Source of the DNA: Seleniivibrio woodruffii
GTDB taxonomy: Bacteria; Chrysiogenota; Deferribacteres; Deferribacterales; Geovibrionaceae
Direction of reading: 5' to 3'
DNA length: 64,000 nucleotides
Assembly: GCF_004339245.1 (NCBI RefSeq)
Contig: NZ_SMGG01000005.1
Coordinates: 1 to 64,000, forward strand
The translations under genes and the position numbers were made by a program. The notes beneath the pieces were generated by a model, which was not told where the DNA came from, did no database searches, and saw only the letters and a program-made list of their open reading frames with translations. Positions within the stretch are counted from its first letter, which is position 1; each line of letters opens with the position of its first letter. This document shows positions 3,708 through 14,929 of the stretch, in pieces.

Positions 3708-5546
3708 ATGTTAAAGACACTGGAACTGCCCTCCATCTGGCAGAAAAGACTTTTACATCTCGAACATGCATTTCAGCCCATAATCAATCCCCTCAGCGGC
3801 AGACTGTTCGCCGTGGAGGCACTTCTGCGGGGATGGGACAAGGCCGGGTTTGAAAGCATCTTCGACCTGTTCGACACGGCGTTTTCCGACGGCGTGCTCC
3901 TTCCTCTTGACATAGAGCTGAGGCGCAGGGCAGTTGAGAAATTCACCCGCATCCACCACCACAAAAAGATCAAGCTTTTCTACAACTTCGACGTGCGCAT
4001 CACCGACATGGAGGACTACAAACCCGGAGTTTCCGGCCGCCTTATGCAGGATATCGGGCTTGATCCCGGAGTCTTCTGTTTCGAGATAAGCGAAAGGCAC
4101 AAGATAAACGACAAACACATGAACTGCCTGCTGAACAGCGCAAAGACATCCGGCTGCCGCATAGCCATTGACGATTTCGGTTCCGGATTCGCAAACTTCG
4201 AGCTGTTCTATTTCAGCGAACCGGACTACATAAAGCTGGACAGGTTCCTCATCTCCGACATCCACAAGGACGTGCGCAAGCGCAAGTTCTGCTCACATAT
4301 AATAAATCTTGCACATTTCTTCGGAATCAGCATCATAGCCGAAGGCATAGAGACCGAACGGGAGTTCCTCTCATGCCGGGATATGGGGGTTGACCTCATT
4401 CAGGGTTACTACGTCGCCCGCCCGTCACTGAACACCGACGACATGCTCCAGCTGTACAGCCACATTGAGGCACTTTTCGCCGGAAACAGACGACTGAACA
4501 CACAGGATGCCCATCTGGTGAGCAACGAGATGGTATACATCGACCCCATAGACATAGGCGGTTCCGTTGAGGAGCTTCTGCACAAGATAAGCCTTAAGCC
4601 CGACCTGAACTTTGTCCCCGTGGTCGACGCAAACCTGATACCCGTGGGAATAATCAGCGAAACAGATCTGAAACAGTACCTCTATAAGCCATACGGAAAA
4701 GAACTGCTCTTCAACAAGAGCCACACGCCGTCCATCAAAAAATTCATGAAAAAATGCCCCATCATAGAGATAACCATCCCCCTTGAGCAGATGCTGGAGA
4801 TATACGTTGCCAACCCCGAATCCGAAGGCATCATCATCACAAAAGACCTGAAATATCACGGTTTCATGACCGCCCAGTCACTGCTTAACACCCTGAACGA
4901 AAAGAACCTCGCCTTTGCCAGAGACATGAATCCGCTGACCAAACTGCCCGGCAACAGCCTTATCAACAACTATCTGAACAAGGCATACAGGGACGAGGAC
5001 AGTTCATATGTCTTCATATACTTCGATTTCGACAACTTCAAACCCTTCAACGACCGTTTCGGCTTCCGTCAGGGCGACAGAGCCATAATGCTGTTCACCG
5101 AAATAATGCGGGAGCGCATAACCGAATCGGGTTCGTTCATCGGACACATCGGCGGGGATGATTTCTTCTGCGGAGTCTCCTTCAGAGCGGATGATCCGGA
5201 GAGCGGAGTAAACGTCATGGCTGTCATAAACACCGTCATACACGACTTCACCGATGCCGCCGCCAGCTTCTATGACCCAGAAGAGGTGTCGGCAAAAAGC
5301 TATGCCGGAAAGGACAGGGACGGAAACGAGCGCCTGTTCCCTCTGCTGTCTGTCAGCGCAGCCATAATAAGGCTTCCCGAAGGCAAAAGGGACTACACCT
5401 CCGACGACCTCAGCAACACCCTTGCGGTATTGAAAAAAGAGGCGAAAAAGTCAACGACTAAAACAGCTTTCATAGATCTCGGTTCGGAAAACAAGGTGGA
5501 CACACGGATAAATATGCTTCTGAAGCACGCCATTAACACAATTTGA
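3708..5546 (+). CDS. EAL-CBS-GGDEF cyclic-di-GMP signalling protein
   Basis: This 612-residue cytoplasmic protein has an N-terminal EAL phosphodiesterase domain (about 20-250), a CBS pair (about 265-400) and a C-terminal GGDEF domain (about 420-605). The EAL domain keeps its signature (37-39), DDFGSG, KLD, AEGIETE and IQGYY, so it could hydrolyse c-di-GMP. The GGDEF site reads GGDDF (482-486), a permitted active variant. CBS pairs usually bind adenine nucleotides, so c-di-GMP turnover here may follow energy charge. This domain order is a known one, with the EAL in front. There is no membrane segment. Which activity dominates cannot be told from sequence. The next gene also contains CBS domains. 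Confidence 0.92.
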   Translation: MLKTLELPSIWQKRLLHLEHAFQPIINPLSGRLFAVEALLRGWDKAGFESIFDLFDTAFSDGVLLPLDIELRRRAVEKFTRIHHHKKIKLFYNFDVRITDMEDYKPGVSGRLMQDIGLDPGVFCFEISERHKINDKHMNCLLNSAKTSGCRIAIDDFGSGFANFELFYFSEPDYIKLDRFLISDIHKDVRKRKFCSHIINLAHFFGISIIAEGIETEREFLSCRDMGVDLIQGYYVARPSLNTDDMLQLYSHIEALFAGNRRLNTQDAHLVSNEMVYIDPIDIGGSVEELLHKISLKPDLNFVPVVDANLIPVGIISETDLKQYLYKPYGKELLFNKSHTPSIKKFMKKCPIIEITIPLEQMLEIYVANPESEGIIITKDLKYHGFMTAQSLLNTLNEKNLAFARDMNPLTKLPGNSLINNYLNKAYRDEDSSYVFIYFDFDNFKPFNDRFGFRQGDRAIMLFTEIMRERITESGSFIGHIGGDDFFCGVSFRADDPESGVNVMAVINTVIHDFTDAAASFYDPEEVSAKSYAGKDRDGNERLFPLLSVSAAIIRLPEGKRDYTSDDLSNTLAVLKKEAKKSTTKTAFIDLGSENKVDTRINMLLKHAINTI

Positions 5547-7469: not shown

Positions 7470-9074
7470 TCAAAGATAAGGCAGGCTGATGGTCATAACG
7501 GTGCCGACGGGCATTGAAGCGGCTGTCAGTCTGCCGTTCATATGCTCCTCAACAATAACCTTCGACATATAAAGTCCGATGCCCGAACCGCCGGCTTTGG
7601 TTGTGAAATACGGATCGAACATCCGTTCCGCAATATCACCGCTGATTCCGCATCCGTTGTCGGTGATGTATAGATTAAGCCTGTCTCCGGCCTCTTCAAC
7701 CTTAAGGGAGACTCTTCCGTCGCCGGACTCCTTCTCTATGATGGCATCCACAGCATTGTTCAGAATGTTGATTATCACCTGCTTGAACTCCGCCGGAACA
7801 CCCCTGAGTCTTATAAAATCGTTGCTTTCAAGCACCTGCTGAATATTGTTCTCGTCCGCATGAAGGTTCCTTGCGCCTGCAAAACAGCTGAAAGCCAGAG
7901 AAACCCCGCTGTTCTTCATTCTTGCGCTTTGCAGGGTGATAACCTCGCCGAGCACCCTGAACACGGAGAAAATCTCCTCCTCCTGTCCGGAGCGGAAGAA
8001 ACTGCTCAAATCGTCCATTGTCTTTGAGATGGTCTTTATGAGAGCCATGGAGTCCACCGTCAGCTCTTTAATGTATTGCTCGTCCAGTTCGCCTGCGTTG
8101 TATGCGTCTTCAAGGTCTTCAATGTTAATTCCCAGAGCCGAAAGGGGCTGCCGCCACTGGTGGGCTATGGCGCTTATCATCTGCCCCATGGCCATGAAGC
8201 GTGACTGCTCGAAAATTATCTGTTCGTTCTTTCTTCTCTTGTCCGTCTCTTCGGCCACAGCCTTCGCCAGCTCAATATTCACCAACTCAAGCTCTTTCTG
8301 TTTTGCTATCAGCTGTTTCTCAGCTTCAAGCTGATCTGTTATATTGTGGAAGATGTGGACTATACTGCCGGACGGAAGTCTGTAGAGATAGCTGTTGAAC
8401 CAGCCTCTGATAACATCGTCCTCGTAGTACATTTTTTCGTTTTTAAGGGGCTGTCCTGTCTCCTGAACCTGCCTCAGTGCCTCCAGAAAGCCGTATTCCT
8501 TTGCGTTTTTGTAAACGGCCGTCATTGGGCGGGACACAAGGTCGGTTCTGTCCCTTTTCAGCAGAGTGCAGGCGGCGTTGTTCACATCGGTGAAGATATA
8601 TTTGCTGCCGAACTCTATCAGGTCGTAGATGGCGACACCGCTGGACATGTTGTTGAAAAGCTCGCGATATTTCAGCTCGCTCTCTTTAACAGAGGTATCG
8701 TTACGGAATTTGTGCAGTGCCAGCTCAATTGTCGTTTGCAGGGTGCCTTCGTCAAACGGTGTGTAGATGTAGCCGTAGTGGTTGGTCTTCATGGTCTGAT
8801 AGAGGGTTCTGCTGTTGATGGCTTCTGTGAAATAGATCACGGGAACAGAGAGCTCTGTCTGAATCAGGGAGACTTTGGCTATAACGTTTCTGTCGGCGTT
8901 CACAGTCATATCGACTATGAGTGCATCAGGCATATAGGCCTTAACCTCTTCTGCGATATCGGAAGAACGCAGACCTATAACACGGACGCCGTACATCAGT
9001 CCTTTCAGGGCTTTTTCAAGATTTCCGGTGGCATCCTTTTTGGATTCCACAATCATAATGTTTCTGCTTTTCAT
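7470..9074 (-). CDS. Sensor histidine kinase with degenerate receiver and PAS domains
   Basis: A 534-residue soluble kinase. Residues 1-120 resemble a response-regulator receiver: a candidate aspartate is kept in LIVDMTV, but the acidic pocket reads IVES and the conserved lysine is replaced by T in IYTPF, so phosphorylation is doubtful. A PAS domain (about 130-250) and a coiled coil follow. The dimerisation helix carries the phosphoacceptor H305 in IAHQWRQPL, and the HATPase domain has NILNNAVDAI, DNGCGI and GSGIGLYMSK. It lies 97 bases downstream of the STAS gene on the same strand, next to a receiver-PP2C protein that is a natural output candidate. No membrane segment is present. Confidence 0.9.
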   Translation of the reverse strand: MKSRNIMIVESKKDATGNLEKALKGLMYGVRVIGLRSSDIAEEVKAYMPDALIVDMTVNADRNVIAKVSLIQTELSVPVIYFTEAINSRTLYQTMKTNHYGYIYTPFDEGTLQTTIELALHKFRNDTSVKESELKYRELFNNMSSGVAIYDLIEFGSKYIFTDVNNAACTLLKRDRTDLVSRPMTAVYKNAKEYGFLEALRQVQETGQPLKNEKMYYEDDVIRGWFNSYLYRLPSGSIVHIFHNITDQLEAEKQLIAKQKELELVNIELAKAVAEETDKRRKNEQIIFEQSRFMAMGQMISAIAHQWRQPLSALGINIEDLEDAYNAGELDEQYIKELTVDSMALIKTISKTMDDLSSFFRSGQEEEIFSVFRVLGEVITLQSARMKNSGVSLAFSCFAGARNLHADENNIQQVLESNDFIRLRGVPAEFKQVIINILNNAVDAIIEKESGDGRVSLKVEEAGDRLNLYITDNGCGISGDIAERMFDPYFTTKAGGSGIGLYMSKVIVEEHMNGRLTAASMPVGTVMTISLPYL

Positions 9075-9171
9075 ATATGTTCCGATTTAGCCCAAATTAC
9101 CGACAAATACAATATTAAACTGACCAAAATAATCACAGACAGAAAAAAAATGCATCAATATTTCAGTATTC

Positions 9172-9468
9172 CTAAAATTGACGAACGTTGAAAAACTTGA
9201 TCAGATTCAGGTCGCAGAGCAGGCTGTACAGTTTTTTATCGTGCACCTTCAGCGACAAAGATATTCCGTCCCTGTGTATAATTTTTGTAAAGAAGCCTAT
9301 GATAGAGGAGTTTATCGACATCGAATCGGTTATTTCGATTGTCAGCTCCTTTTCTCCGGATGCTATAAATTCCGTGAGCCTTCGTTTCAGCTCGACATAG
9401 TTCTCAATTGTTTTGACATCGCCTCCGAGGCGCATAACATTTGGTTCAGGAAATTCAACAATCATCAT
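9172..9468 (-). CDS. STAS-domain anti-sigma-factor antagonist-like protein (HsbA-like)
   Basis: A 98-residue single-domain protein with the STAS fold pattern: IVEFPEPNVMRLGGDV forms the first strands, then ELTIEITDSMSINSSIIGFF, where SpoIIAA-type proteins have their phosphorylatable serine, and a closing LKVHDKKL strand with helix. Such proteins are switched by a serine kinase and a PP2C phosphatase. Both activities are predicted in the protein encoded divergently at 9571, which makes this its likely substrate. The pairing resembles HsbA with HsbR in Pseudomonas. The ORF is read from the ATG at 9468. Confidence 0.75.
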   Translation of the reverse strand: MMIVEFPEPNVMRLGGDVKTIENYVELKRRLTEFIASGEKELTIEITDSMSINSSIIGFFTKIIHRDGISLSLKVHDKKLYSLLCDLNLIKFFNVRQF

Positions 9469-9570
9469 ATTCCCCGGCAGCGGTTATCACTTTTTCTTTT
9501 TTTCATTTGTAATTATAAACTGAAATTGATAAGATTTCATCAAAATAAAAATGTCTTATTACGGATAGAT

Positions 9571-11268
9571 ATGAACGAAATCAGCATTATGACCGACCTG
9601 ATGCGGGAGCTGACGGTTCTATGTGTGGATGATGAACCGCTGGCACTGGAATACCTGGGCGCAAAACTCGCCCGCAGGTTCAAATCCGTTTTAAAAGCAT
9701 CCGACGGCACAGAAGGTCTGGAAATGTTCATCGCCCAGAAGCCCGATCTGGTCATAACCGACAACAGAATGGGTTTCATGGACGGCATCGACATGATCAA
9801 AGAGATCCGCAGGATCAATGCCGACGTGCCTATCATCCTTGTAACTGCATACACAGAGAAGGACGCTCTGGTTGAGGCGATAAATAACAACGTCACCCAG
9901 TTCCTCTCAAAACCTATAGACACTAAAAAGCTGACACAGGCCATTGAGAAATCAATGCAGTCGTTCGTAAACCAGAGACTGCACGAAACAAACCTGCGTC
10001 AGGAACTGGAACTGCTGAAATATCAGGAGAAATACCACTCCCAGCAGGAACTTAACGCATTCAAAAAAGAACTTAGCCTTATCCAGAACGATCTGTTCCT
10101 CGAAAAATTCGGACTTAAGAACTGCTACGGCGACGAATACAGCGTTTATCTGAACATCTTCTACAAACCGCTGGATATCCTCAGCGGCGATATATACTCA
10201 ATCAGAAGGCTGGATGACGGTTCGCTGTTCATATTCCTTGCGGATTCAATGGGCAAAGGGCTTTCGGCATCGGTAACATCGATCCTGACCTCCGCCTACA
10301 TGAATCACATCATAGACACTGAAATGTCTGTGGTGGTGGGGCCTTTAAGAAACTCGGTAAAAATATTCAATAACTACATAAGAAGCATCCTTCTGGATGA
10401 CGAGATACTCTCAATAACATTCCTGAAAATAGACTTTGCCAAAGAGAAGATGGAGATAGCCAGCTTCAGCTCCCCTCCTGTCTATGTGAAGGACAGAGAC
10501 GGCAACGTTGAGATAATCAAATGCAACAACCCGCCCCTGACGAAATATATGACGGATTTCTGCACGGACGAAACCGACATAAGGGACGTGTTGGGCATAA
10601 TGGTCATAACCGACGGGCTTTACGAATGCAGAAGCCACGAGGGCGAAACCATGGTGGACAAGGTCACCGACGGTTTTAAAGCATCGGCAATGAAGACCGA
10701 CTTCCACAAATACGTCGGCAGCCAGATGGCCACTCCTGAGGACGATATATCGTGCATCCACATCCTTAAGATTGATGAGAAACTTAAGGATGAGCGTGTA
10801 TTTGAGTTCGAATCCAGCCTCAAAAATGTCGGCAGATCCATTGAATGGGCGGAAACCTGTTTCACAGAGATGCAGAGCGACTTTGAAACCATGAACATGC
10901 TCACGCTGGCATTCACCGAGATGGTGATGAACTCCTTTGAGCACTCTGTTCTGGAGCTGGACAACAGACAGAAATATCAGATGATAAATCAGGGCGTTTA
11001 TGACGATTACATAGCCGCCGCATCATCGGAAAAGAAGATAAAGACCACAATAGGCATTCAACACCTCTGGGACAAGACCGCCATAGTAATCCGTATCGAA
11101 GACGAGGGCACGGGATTCAACCCCCATATCCTCAAAACATGGATGTATGACAAAGAGAAGAGCGACGGCAAAGGCATAAAGATATCACGACGTATCACGG
11201 ACGAGATCTATTATGCCAAAGGCGGCAGGGAATCGATAATCATCAGGGTTCTGGAAGACCATTCATAA
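9571..11268 (+). CDS. Response regulator with PP2C phosphatase and HATPase kinase domains (HsbR/RsbU-like)
   Basis: A 565-residue cytoplasmic switch protein. The receiver (about 10-125) is intact, with D20/D21, phosphoacceptor D64 and K114. A coiled coil (about 130-175) leads to a SpoIIE-type PP2C domain (about 185-390) with ILSGDIY, LADSMGKG and VITDGLYE. The C-terminus is an anti-sigma-type HATPase domain with TEMVMNSFEHS and DEGTGFNP. HsbR of Pseudomonas has this order and both dephosphorylates and phosphorylates its STAS partner. A STAS gene is divergent, 102 bases away. I start at ATG 9571; the frame stays open further upstream but runs through the STAS gene, and ATG 9589 is an alternative. 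An orthodox receiver implies control by a kinase, perhaps the one at 7470. Confidence 0.88.
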   Translation: MNEISIMTDLMRELTVLCVDDEPLALEYLGAKLARRFKSVLKASDGTEGLEMFIAQKPDLVITDNRMGFMDGIDMIKEIRRINADVPIILVTAYTEKDALVEAINNNVTQFLSKPIDTKKLTQAIEKSMQSFVNQRLHETNLRQELELLKYQEKYHSQQELNAFKKELSLIQNDLFLEKFGLKNCYGDEYSVYLNIFYKPLDILSGDIYSIRRLDDGSLFIFLADSMGKGLSASVTSILTSAYMNHIIDTEMSVVVGPLRNSVKIFNNYIRSILLDDEILSITFLKIDFAKEKMEIASFSSPPVYVKDRDGNVEIIKCNNPPLTKYMTDFCTDETDIRDVLGIMVITDGLYECRSHEGETMVDKVTDGFKASAMKTDFHKYVGSQMATPEDDISCIHILKIDEKLKDERVFEFESSLKNVGRSIEWAETCFTEMQSDFETMNMLTLAFTEMVMNSFEHSVLELDNRQKYQMINQGVYDDYIAAASSEKKIKTTIGIQHLWDKTAIVIRIEDEGTGFNPHILKTWMYDKEKSDGKGIKISRRITDEIYYAKGGRESIIIRVLEDHS

Positions 11269-13516: not shown

Positions 13517-14929
13517 ATGTGGGGAACGTCTAACAATTATTTCAATAATTTATTTACAAAGCTCGACAAAATGATTAACAGCGGACTGAATCTCAATCTC
13601 CGTTTCGAAAATTCCGGCAACAGTCTATGCTCCAAAACCGGCGATGCGCTGAACCGTCTTTTTGAGAGGATACAGACCTCGGTCTTCGACATCTCCTCCG
13701 CCTCGGTAAAGCTGTCGAAAACCGCACCTCTTCTGGAATCTGCCGCACACACACTGAAAGGTGCATCGGTTGCTCAGGCGGAACAGGCAATGCAGATTGC
13801 CGCCGCATCACGACAGCTCTCGGCAACCGTTGAGAATGTCACAGGAAGCACTGTGGAGGCATCAGAATTTTCATCAACAATAATAAAATCCGCAGATGCC
13901 GCAATGCAGAAGAGCAAAAGCTCTTCGGACACCATGCAGGAGGTTAAAAAGCAGGTCACCGAACTTCAGAACCAGATGCGTTCAATGGAGGAATACTCCA
14001 AAAGCATCGGTTCCATCATGGAGATGATCAAAAAAATAGCTGACCAGACAAACCTCCTCTCCCTTAATGCTTCAATAGAGGCGGCAAGAGCAGGAGAGAT
14101 GGGCAGAGGCTTTGCGGTTGTGGCAACCGAGGTGCGCAAGCTGGCAGAGCAGTCCATGGAGGCCACTGACGGGGTGGAGAACATTCTGAACAGCATCCGC
14201 TACAGCATAATGTCCTCCAGCAAGTCCGTGAACGACGTTCTCAAGTCAGTGGACGAGAGCGCCGACATCAGCTGTGAAGCCGTGGTGCTTCTGGAAAGCG
14301 TTAACCTGAGCATAGAAAAGCTGGATGAAAGGCTGAACATGATAGCTTTGGCAGGCAAGGAGCAGGAGGAGACCGTACGCAGTGTTGCGGATTCCATTGA
14401 GCAGATTGCAGTGCAGGCTGATGAGCAGTCCGGTCTGGCATCCCGTCTGGAGGATATCGTAAACACCATAAACGGCGGTTGCGACGATCTTTTGATGGCT
14501 GTGGGCAAATTCAGGCTTAAAACACACGAAAAATCCGCACAGACAGCTGAAACAGCGGCGGCGGCAAGAGAGATACAGTCCATGGACGGATACGCCATGG
14601 AAAATTTCCTGAACGGTTTCATCTCACGCAACAGCTTCATAGAGCTTGCCTATGTCACCGACAGCAGAGGAAGGCAGATTTCGCCCAACGTCTGGAATAA
14701 AGCCGTTAAGGATTCCAACGACCGCTCCGCAGTGGGTTCCGACTGGGGCAGAAGGGACTGGTTCAGCATTCCGGCCAACACGGGAGAAACATATATCAGC
14801 GACATATACCGCTCGGTAGCGTCAAACAGTTTCTGCTTCACCGTTTCAGTCCCAGTGAAATCTCCCGAAGGAACTTTAAGGGGTGTTTTCGCAGTGGATA
14901 TCAACTTTTCCACGATGCTTGACATCTGA
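13517..14929 (+). CDS. Soluble methyl-accepting chemotaxis protein with C-terminal Cache-like sensor
   Basis: A 470-residue receptor with no membrane segment. The signalling domain comes first (about 40-330), with the hairpin tip [21 protein letters not shown] that contacts CheA and CheW. A small-molecule-binding domain of Cache/PDC type follows (about 355-470), recognisable from [38 protein letters not shown] and GVFAVDIN. Cache domains are normally outside the membrane at the N-terminus; here one is predicted inside the cell at the C-terminus. The ATG at 13517 has a strong AGGAGG site, and transcription is predicted to be sigma-54 dependent. The ligand is unknown. Confidence 0.88.

Follow-up and report, generated by a model that had tools for sequence, protein, structure and literature searches.

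A candidate two-component-controlled partner switch in Seleniivibrio woodruffii, with relatives in three phyla that neighbour chemoreceptor or c-di-GMP enzyme genes

Partner switches are generally interpreted as regulators of sigma factors; what does the one encoded near the start of contig NZ_SMGG01000005.1 (C5) of Seleniivibrio woodruffii control? The first 64,000 nucleotides of this contig (the window), which belongs to a genome of 2.9 Mb (G000), carry a gene for a small STAS protein, a divergent gene for a protein joining a receiver, a PP2C phosphatase and an RsbW-type serine kinase, and a histidine kinase gene on the STAS strand. We incline slightly to the view that this locus is a two-component-controlled partner switch in which the histidine kinase would act on D64 of the receiver, D64 on Ser54 of the STAS protein and the latter on an effector, here likeliest an enzyme of cyclic di-guanosine monophosphate (c-di-GMP) turnover. 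For the family, the output is probably c-di-GMP enzymes and/or chemoreceptors. The parts of the switch are as follows.

9172-9468, minus strand: STAS-only protein of 98 amino acids; open reading frame (ORF) intact, with Ser54, where helix 54-67 begins, as the predicted phospho-acceptor
9571-11268, plus strand: receiver-PP2C-RsbW-type kinase of 565 amino acids, predicted bifunctional partner of the STAS protein (Pfam, alignment, model)
9616-9948, plus strand: its receiver domain, residues 16-126, with D21, D64, T92 and K114 intact (Pfam and alignment)
10213-10758, plus strand: its SpoIIE/PP2C phosphatase domain, with D207, D225, D348, D391 and D392 (Pfam and alignment)
10807-11229, plus strand: its HATPase_c_2 (RsbW-type serine kinase) domain, with E450, N454, H458, D511, G513, G515 and G535 (Pfam and alignment)
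9469-9570, no strand: the 102-base stretch separating the two divergent start codons (coordinates)
7470-9074, minus strand: PAS-HisKA-HATPase histidine kinase whose N-terminal receiver is degenerate; its gene follows the STAS gene on that strand (Pfam and orthologue alignment)

A sequence-only reading of the window had placed the three ORFs and the 102 bases between the divergent starts at these positions, and both placements held, with all three frames intact. The histidine kinase gene begins 97 bases beyond the STAS gene. The ATG at 9571 is taken as the true start of the receiver-PP2C-RsbW gene because relatives align from residue 1, and a mechanical ORF at 9178-11268 was discarded as the product of a spurious TTG start. 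NCBIfam offered no specific name for any of the three proteins, and a scan of the window against Rfam at gathering scores returned no RNA family.

The three domains of the receiver-PP2C-RsbW protein score 92.5 (receiver), 60.5 (SpoIIE/PP2C) and 31.2 bits (HATPase_c_2) in Pfam, all above the curated cut-offs, and its AlphaFold model (predicted local distance difference test, pLDDT, 86.4) matches RssB of Pseudomonas aeruginosa (receiver-PP2C) and the RsbU-RsbW domains of Rv1364c. When 71 distinct receiver-PP2C-RsbW proteins, taken from the window and from fetched loci, are aligned, the PP2C aspartates listed above are each found in 71/71 and the listed kinase-domain residues each in 69/71, the two remaining rows being gapped; we take these to be PP2C metal and RsbW ATP positions, respectively. 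The receiver residues named beforehand (D20, D21, D64 and K114) are all there, the acidic D20 position being mostly E in relatives. K114 is invariant (71/71) and D64 is present in 69/71. The exceptions are two Sulfurospirillum proteins (L144:10273-11934 and L176:5778-7442) which have Ala for the receiver phospho-aspartate and whose loci retain a chemoreceptor gene.

The STAS protein is less easily recognized by profile, as its Pfam STAS score (15.4 bits) falls below the cut-off of 22.6, and none of the 28 family members tested matched any Pfam family at E 0.001. Its AlphaFold model (pLDDT 91.7) is matched by Foldseek to RsbV, RsfB, TM1442 and SpoIIAA with probabilities of 0.99-1.00, the best E value being 4.8e-3 and none lying below 0.001. 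The motif's first serine, S54, matches the D-S-T serine of RsbV (PDB 6m36) in the alignment, begins helix 54-67 of the model and is kept in 40/40 distinct STAS relatives; the serine after it is Ala or Thr in 5 of these 40. Where RsbV has Asp before the phospho-serine, this protein has Asn and most of the family Thr. Alignment and model thus both put a predicted phosphorylatable serine at the canonical place of this STAS-only protein. A coiled-coil spike construct that ranked above RsbV in the PDB profile search was set aside as spurious, consisting of three weak copies of one stretch of a repeat construct.

The H, N and G boxes of the histidine kinase are intact in 8/8 orthologues; loss of the H box in the sister-genus proteins was considered and rejected, the histidine being present in all. 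In the N-terminal receiver the Asp is kept (IVDM), the second acid is Ser, Ala or Tyr and the lysine is Thr, Ser or Ala in 8/8, and therefore phosphorylation of the usual kind is unlikely. The description of this protein as a hybrid-like kinase is correct in outline, a receiver being present, but that receiver is degenerate throughout the orthologues. Among the phylum genomes, full-length orthologues (58-100% identity) were found only in the genus of the window (5 genomes) and in its sister genus (3 genomes).

The STAS and receiver-PP2C genes travel together. In a sample of 50 genomes of the phylum, with lines drawn at E 0.001 for STAS and at E 1e-20 for the receiver-PP2C protein, each was found in 34/50, and the 34 genomes are identical; in three genomes of one family (f10) the best receiver-PP2C match spans the receiver and PP2C domains only (query residues 7-406). 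Chance juxtaposition is excluded by this co-occurrence (34/34) together with the linkage of the kinase gene (8/8). A wider STAS scan (alignment A2, one genome per species) kept 80 of 99 relatives, namely 16 from Deferribacterota, 10 from Nitrospirota and 54 from Campylobacterota, a set biased by its selection with the pattern S[IM]TSS[VI]IG[FY] and with phyla assigned from record titles and neighbours (one record is titled merely 'bacterium'). A PP2C gene lies in the STAS run at 13/16, 9/10 and 48/54 of these loci, respectively. By sequence, each of the three proteins is intact, occurs together with its partners and is conserved.

How such a switch might be driven is suggested by the layout. 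The PAS histidine kinase would sense a cytoplasmic signal and phosphorylate D64 of the receiver-PP2C-RsbW protein; the state of D64 would set the balance between the PP2C phosphatase and the RsbW-type serine kinase, and this balance would fix the phosphorylation state of Ser54. The STAS protein, as its neighbours suggest, would then bind an effector and not mainly release a sigma factor. The proposal of the sequence-only reading that the adjacent kinase is the likely input gained weight from its position beside the STAS gene in 8/8 genomes of two genera, with gaps of 16-120 bases. The same linkage speaks against the idea, which we regard as rather doubtful, that this kinase is not the input, the receiver being served by another kinase or by CheA and the neighbour belonging to a different pathway; in favour of that idea, the kinase is limited to two genera while the pair spans three phyla, and CheA is encoded in 49/50 genomes. 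With CheA so widespread, its loss was also rejected as the reason for the absence of the pair from some genomes.

If the kinase, D64 and Ser54 form the chain, the output remains to be named, and the most familiar candidate would be a sigma factor. The genome encodes six Sigma70_r2 proteins, and none of them lies in the window, where the sequence-only reading had likewise seen no sigma factor. No sigma or anti-sigma gene adjoins this STAS gene. An extracytoplasmic function (ECF) sigma gene 223 bases after a STAS gene in another genome (L083:7565-8140, G029) was rejected as a partner, having been found in one genome only. The genome has an RpoS-like protein, encoded after a gene which from its sequence we take to be pcm; it scores 323 bits to TIGR02394, under the cut-off of 378.7. 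With the orthologue line at E 1e-90, RpoS-like proteins occur in 25/50 genomes, and the pair is present in 17/25 with and in 17/25 without them (Fisher p = 1). RpoS was accordingly dropped as a universal target. FlgM is near-universal (44/50 genomes, including 12/16 without the pair; Fisher p = 0.07) and is of no use as a marker of the pathway. The genome's own FlgM is encoded on another contig (G000:C3:654776), so that the locus has no genetic link to FlgM, for which a domain search had been proposed. Classical control of the HsbR/CrsR type, in which RpoS or FlgM would be tied up by either the kinase domain or the STAS protein, agrees with the domain order (PMC6482189, in the part available to us) and with the presence of an RpoS-like protein and FlgM in the genome; we nevertheless consider it unlikely, given the independence of RpoS from the pair, the 12 genomes with FlgM and without the pair, and the lack of an adjoining sigma or anti-sigma gene.

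The neighbours of the relatives point instead to signalling enzymes. In the sister genus the STAS, kinase and GGDEF-EAL genes are co-directional in 3/3 genomes, with 95-309 bases between the kinase and GGDEF-EAL genes, and because the orthologue there is followed by this pair of genes in the same direction, a c-di-GMP enzyme is the likeliest effector of the present paralogue. Another genus (g5) has a co-directional GGDEF-EAL gene after the STAS gene in 4/4 genomes (L079, L080, L198 and L200). When every STAS ORF in the larger loci is counted, 11/114 (102 distinct) are followed by a GGDEF or EAL gene no more than three co-directional genes away, against 5/329 other genes. Three c-di-GMP proteins had been reported in the window, and three GGDEF proteins were indeed found there. 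The one nearest to the switch is the following.

3708-5546, plus strand: EAL-CBS-GGDEF protein, a conserved neighbour in the genus and a possible output of uncertain membership (Pfam; same neighbour in 5/5 genomes of the genus)

In all five genomes (window and L185-L188) its gene is found on the other strand, two genes past that of the kinase. A Sulfurimonas run (L182:2785-8261) contains a STAS gene, an N-terminally unusual histidine kinase, a receiver-PP2C protein without the kinase domain and a receiver-GGDEF-EAL protein.

Several points weigh against the chain from kinase to c-di-GMP enzyme. That the kinase passes phosphate to D64 is an assumption based solely on gene position. Also encoded in the genome are an RpoS-like sigma factor, FliA and FlgM, all possible targets as in Pseudomonas. 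In the genus of the window the closest GGDEF/EAL gene stands at a distance of two genes and on the opposite strand. Moreover, a c-di-GMP gene follows only the 11/114 STAS ORFs counted above and lies in the run at only 1/54 Campylobacterota loci, and therefore c-di-GMP output would be lineage-specific at best.

A class of chemoreceptors tracks the pair better than c-di-GMP genes do, although the operons of the relatives do support the c-di-GMP output named by the sequence-only reading. When the signalling domain of the receptor beside the second STAS gene of one sister-genus genome (G018) was searched in the 50 genomes, 25 matches at 214-618 bits were followed by a drop to 138 bits. With the cut set after this gap was seen, these 25 receptors fall in 23 genomes, 23/34 with the pair and 0/16 without (Fisher p = 2.7e-6, phylogeny ignored). 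By coordinates 18/25 adjoin a STAS or PP2C gene, often in the same operon, and their sensor domains vary (NIT, dCache_3, PilJ). In Campylobacterota a receptor lies in the STAS run at 42/54 loci, and a tree places the 27 receptors sampled from both phyla in a single clade (100/100), the comparison set being 8 other receptors, all from Deferribacterota and none from Campylobacterota; win_38744 dropped out because it lacks the tip pattern. The switch could thus be coupled to a chemoreceptor, the STAS protein (or the kinase/phosphatase) acting on, or being controlled by, this dedicated class and so tuning the chemosensory array. In the genome of the window the receptor would be the single orphan member of the class, which has a PilJ sensor (G000:C4:50438-51391). 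We hold this to be a serious possibility, if one short of probable: no chemoreceptor gene stands beside this STAS gene, unlike in the module described in PMC9239204, and 11/34 genomes with the pair have no receptor of the class (G019, G024, G006-G009, G016 and G029-G032).

Loci that have lost the receiver bear on how a receptor might be joined to the switch. At 12 of the 48 Campylobacterota loci with a PP2C gene its product has no receiver, one of them (L137) being a broken ORF, and 10 of the 11 intact ones keep the receptor, so that the link is independent of the receiver. The PP2C gene starts on the last base of the receptor gene in 7/10 and within 22 bases in the other three. With no receiver in these PP2C proteins, a route from the receptor through CheA to a receiver within the same protein is closed, and it seems more likely that the receptor touches the switch directly, as the abutting or overlapping genes suggest, or that it is the output.

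Paralogues within a genome seem to be split between the two kinds of neighbour. In G018 one STAS gene has the kinase and GGDEF-EAL genes (L092) and the other a receptor (L091), and in G023 one stands with a receptor and PP2C, while the neighbours of the other encode a lone receiver, a binding protein and a GGDEF-EAL protein. The genome of the window has a second STAS paralogue (G000:C4:257959-258225; L003:9439-9735; 42% identity), which falls in the family's chemoreceptor branch. It stands alone between PhoH-like and ABC-F genes, and a receptor gene of the special class adjoins its counterpart in G018, G020 and G025. The genome also encodes a second PP2C-RsbW protein (G000:C3:20630-21925; L098:7950-9929), which gave no receiver match in Pfam and whose gene converges with that of another PAS histidine kinase. 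Because relatives in three phyla tie the switch to the chemoreceptor class or to c-di-GMP enzymes, the evidence suggests that it steers behaviour directly and not via a sigma factor. A broader proposal, which we offer tentatively and from gene content, is that the STAS subfamily of Deferribacterota, Nitrospirota and Campylobacterota may be a sigma-free adaptor whose serine state gates either a receptor class or a c-di-GMP enzyme, with paralogues divided between the two.

Among known partner switches, the general stress switch RsbU-RsbV-RsbW has separate phosphatase and kinase proteins and a SigB-type gene alongside, whereas here the two activities are fused and the window holds no Sigma70_r2 gene. 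In SypE, the partner of SypA, the domain order is RsbW-receiver-PP2C, unlike the receiver-PP2C-RsbW order here; the permuted order was seen in two Campylobacterota proteins whose genes adjoin a STAS gene (L146:976-3252 and L157:3200-5476). A Nitrospirota contig (L112:1-10535) carries near-identical repeated STAS and GGDEF-PAS-PP2C-RsbW genes.

The nearest tested systems are HsbR/HsbA, CrsR/CrsA and SiaABCD (PMC6482189, PMC5085249 and PMC7647112, each cited for the part available to us). HsbR-HsbA of P. aeruginosa is alike by architecture, with a receiver-PP2C-kinase protein beside a STAS-only protein whose phosphorylatable serine is S56, and binding of HsbA to the diguanylate cyclase HsbD is established (PMC5085249). 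That system also includes binding of FlgM and RpoS, and genes for FlgM and an RpoS-like factor exist here as well. Signals enter it through HptB, which receives them from hybrid kinases, where here the input is probably the adjacent PAS histidine kinase, and its gene cluster is next to flgM. The earlier label of an HsbA/HsbR-like switch therefore stands for the architecture, a cognate STAS protein and the receiver-PP2C-HATPase order in one protein, but not for flgM linkage or for tracking with RpoS. CrsR-CrsA of Shewanella oneidensis has the same architecture, its kinase domain being an anti-sigma factor for RpoS (PMC6482189), a target whose presence is independent of the pair here. In SiaABCD of P. 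aeruginosa, too, a PP2C phosphatase and an RsbW-like kinase occur with a protein of STAS fold, which activates a diguanylate cyclase (PMC7647112), but kinase and phosphatase are separate proteins and a threonine is phosphorylated; the present STAS model matches SiaC weakly (Foldseek rank 17, probability 0.84). The SiaC-SiaD complex (PDB 7e6g) is, like HsbA-HsbD, an established case of a STAS protein binding a diguanylate cyclase. F7 chemosensory clusters also bring together an mcpA-like receptor, an anti-sigma factor antagonist and a serine phosphatase (PMC7184735, accessible part), within a full che cluster of which none was seen around the loci studied here.

The closest counterpart is found in Campylobacterota, for which PMC9239204, in the part available to us, proposes that a receiver-PP2C-kinase protein with an unknown histidine kinase upstream acts on a chemoreceptor via a STAS protein and, for another PP2C/STAS set, that the target is a c-di-GMP enzyme, proposals made, as stated there, without experiments. 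As far as that part shows, the gene set of these receiver-PP2C-STYK/STAS/chemoreceptor clusters is that of our Campylobacterota loci, whereas in the Deferribacterales lineage here the STAS run includes a histidine kinase gene and this STAS gene has no receptor gene for a neighbour. Our literature search found no paper combining Deferribacter with partner switching, and none combining Epsilonproteobacteria, chemoreceptor, anti-anti-sigma and phosphatase. As far as the accessible parts of these sources go, what is possibly new is that the switch extends to Deferribacterota and Nitrospirota, that a receptor class exists and co-occurs with the pair, that some loci are receiver-less and that there is a candidate cognate kinase. 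Elsewhere in the window, 13517-14929 encodes a chemoreceptor-like protein whose cache/PDC domain is C-terminal, after the signalling domain.

The window probably supplies a part that had been missing, a histidine kinase that is a candidate cognate partner for such switches, that of the Campylobacterota counterpart having been called unknown in the part of PMC9239204 available to us. Should this subfamily gate chemoreceptors and c-di-GMP enzymes directly, it would link serine phosphorylation with chemosensing and with surface behaviour across three phyla, among whose members is the gut genus Mucispirillum.

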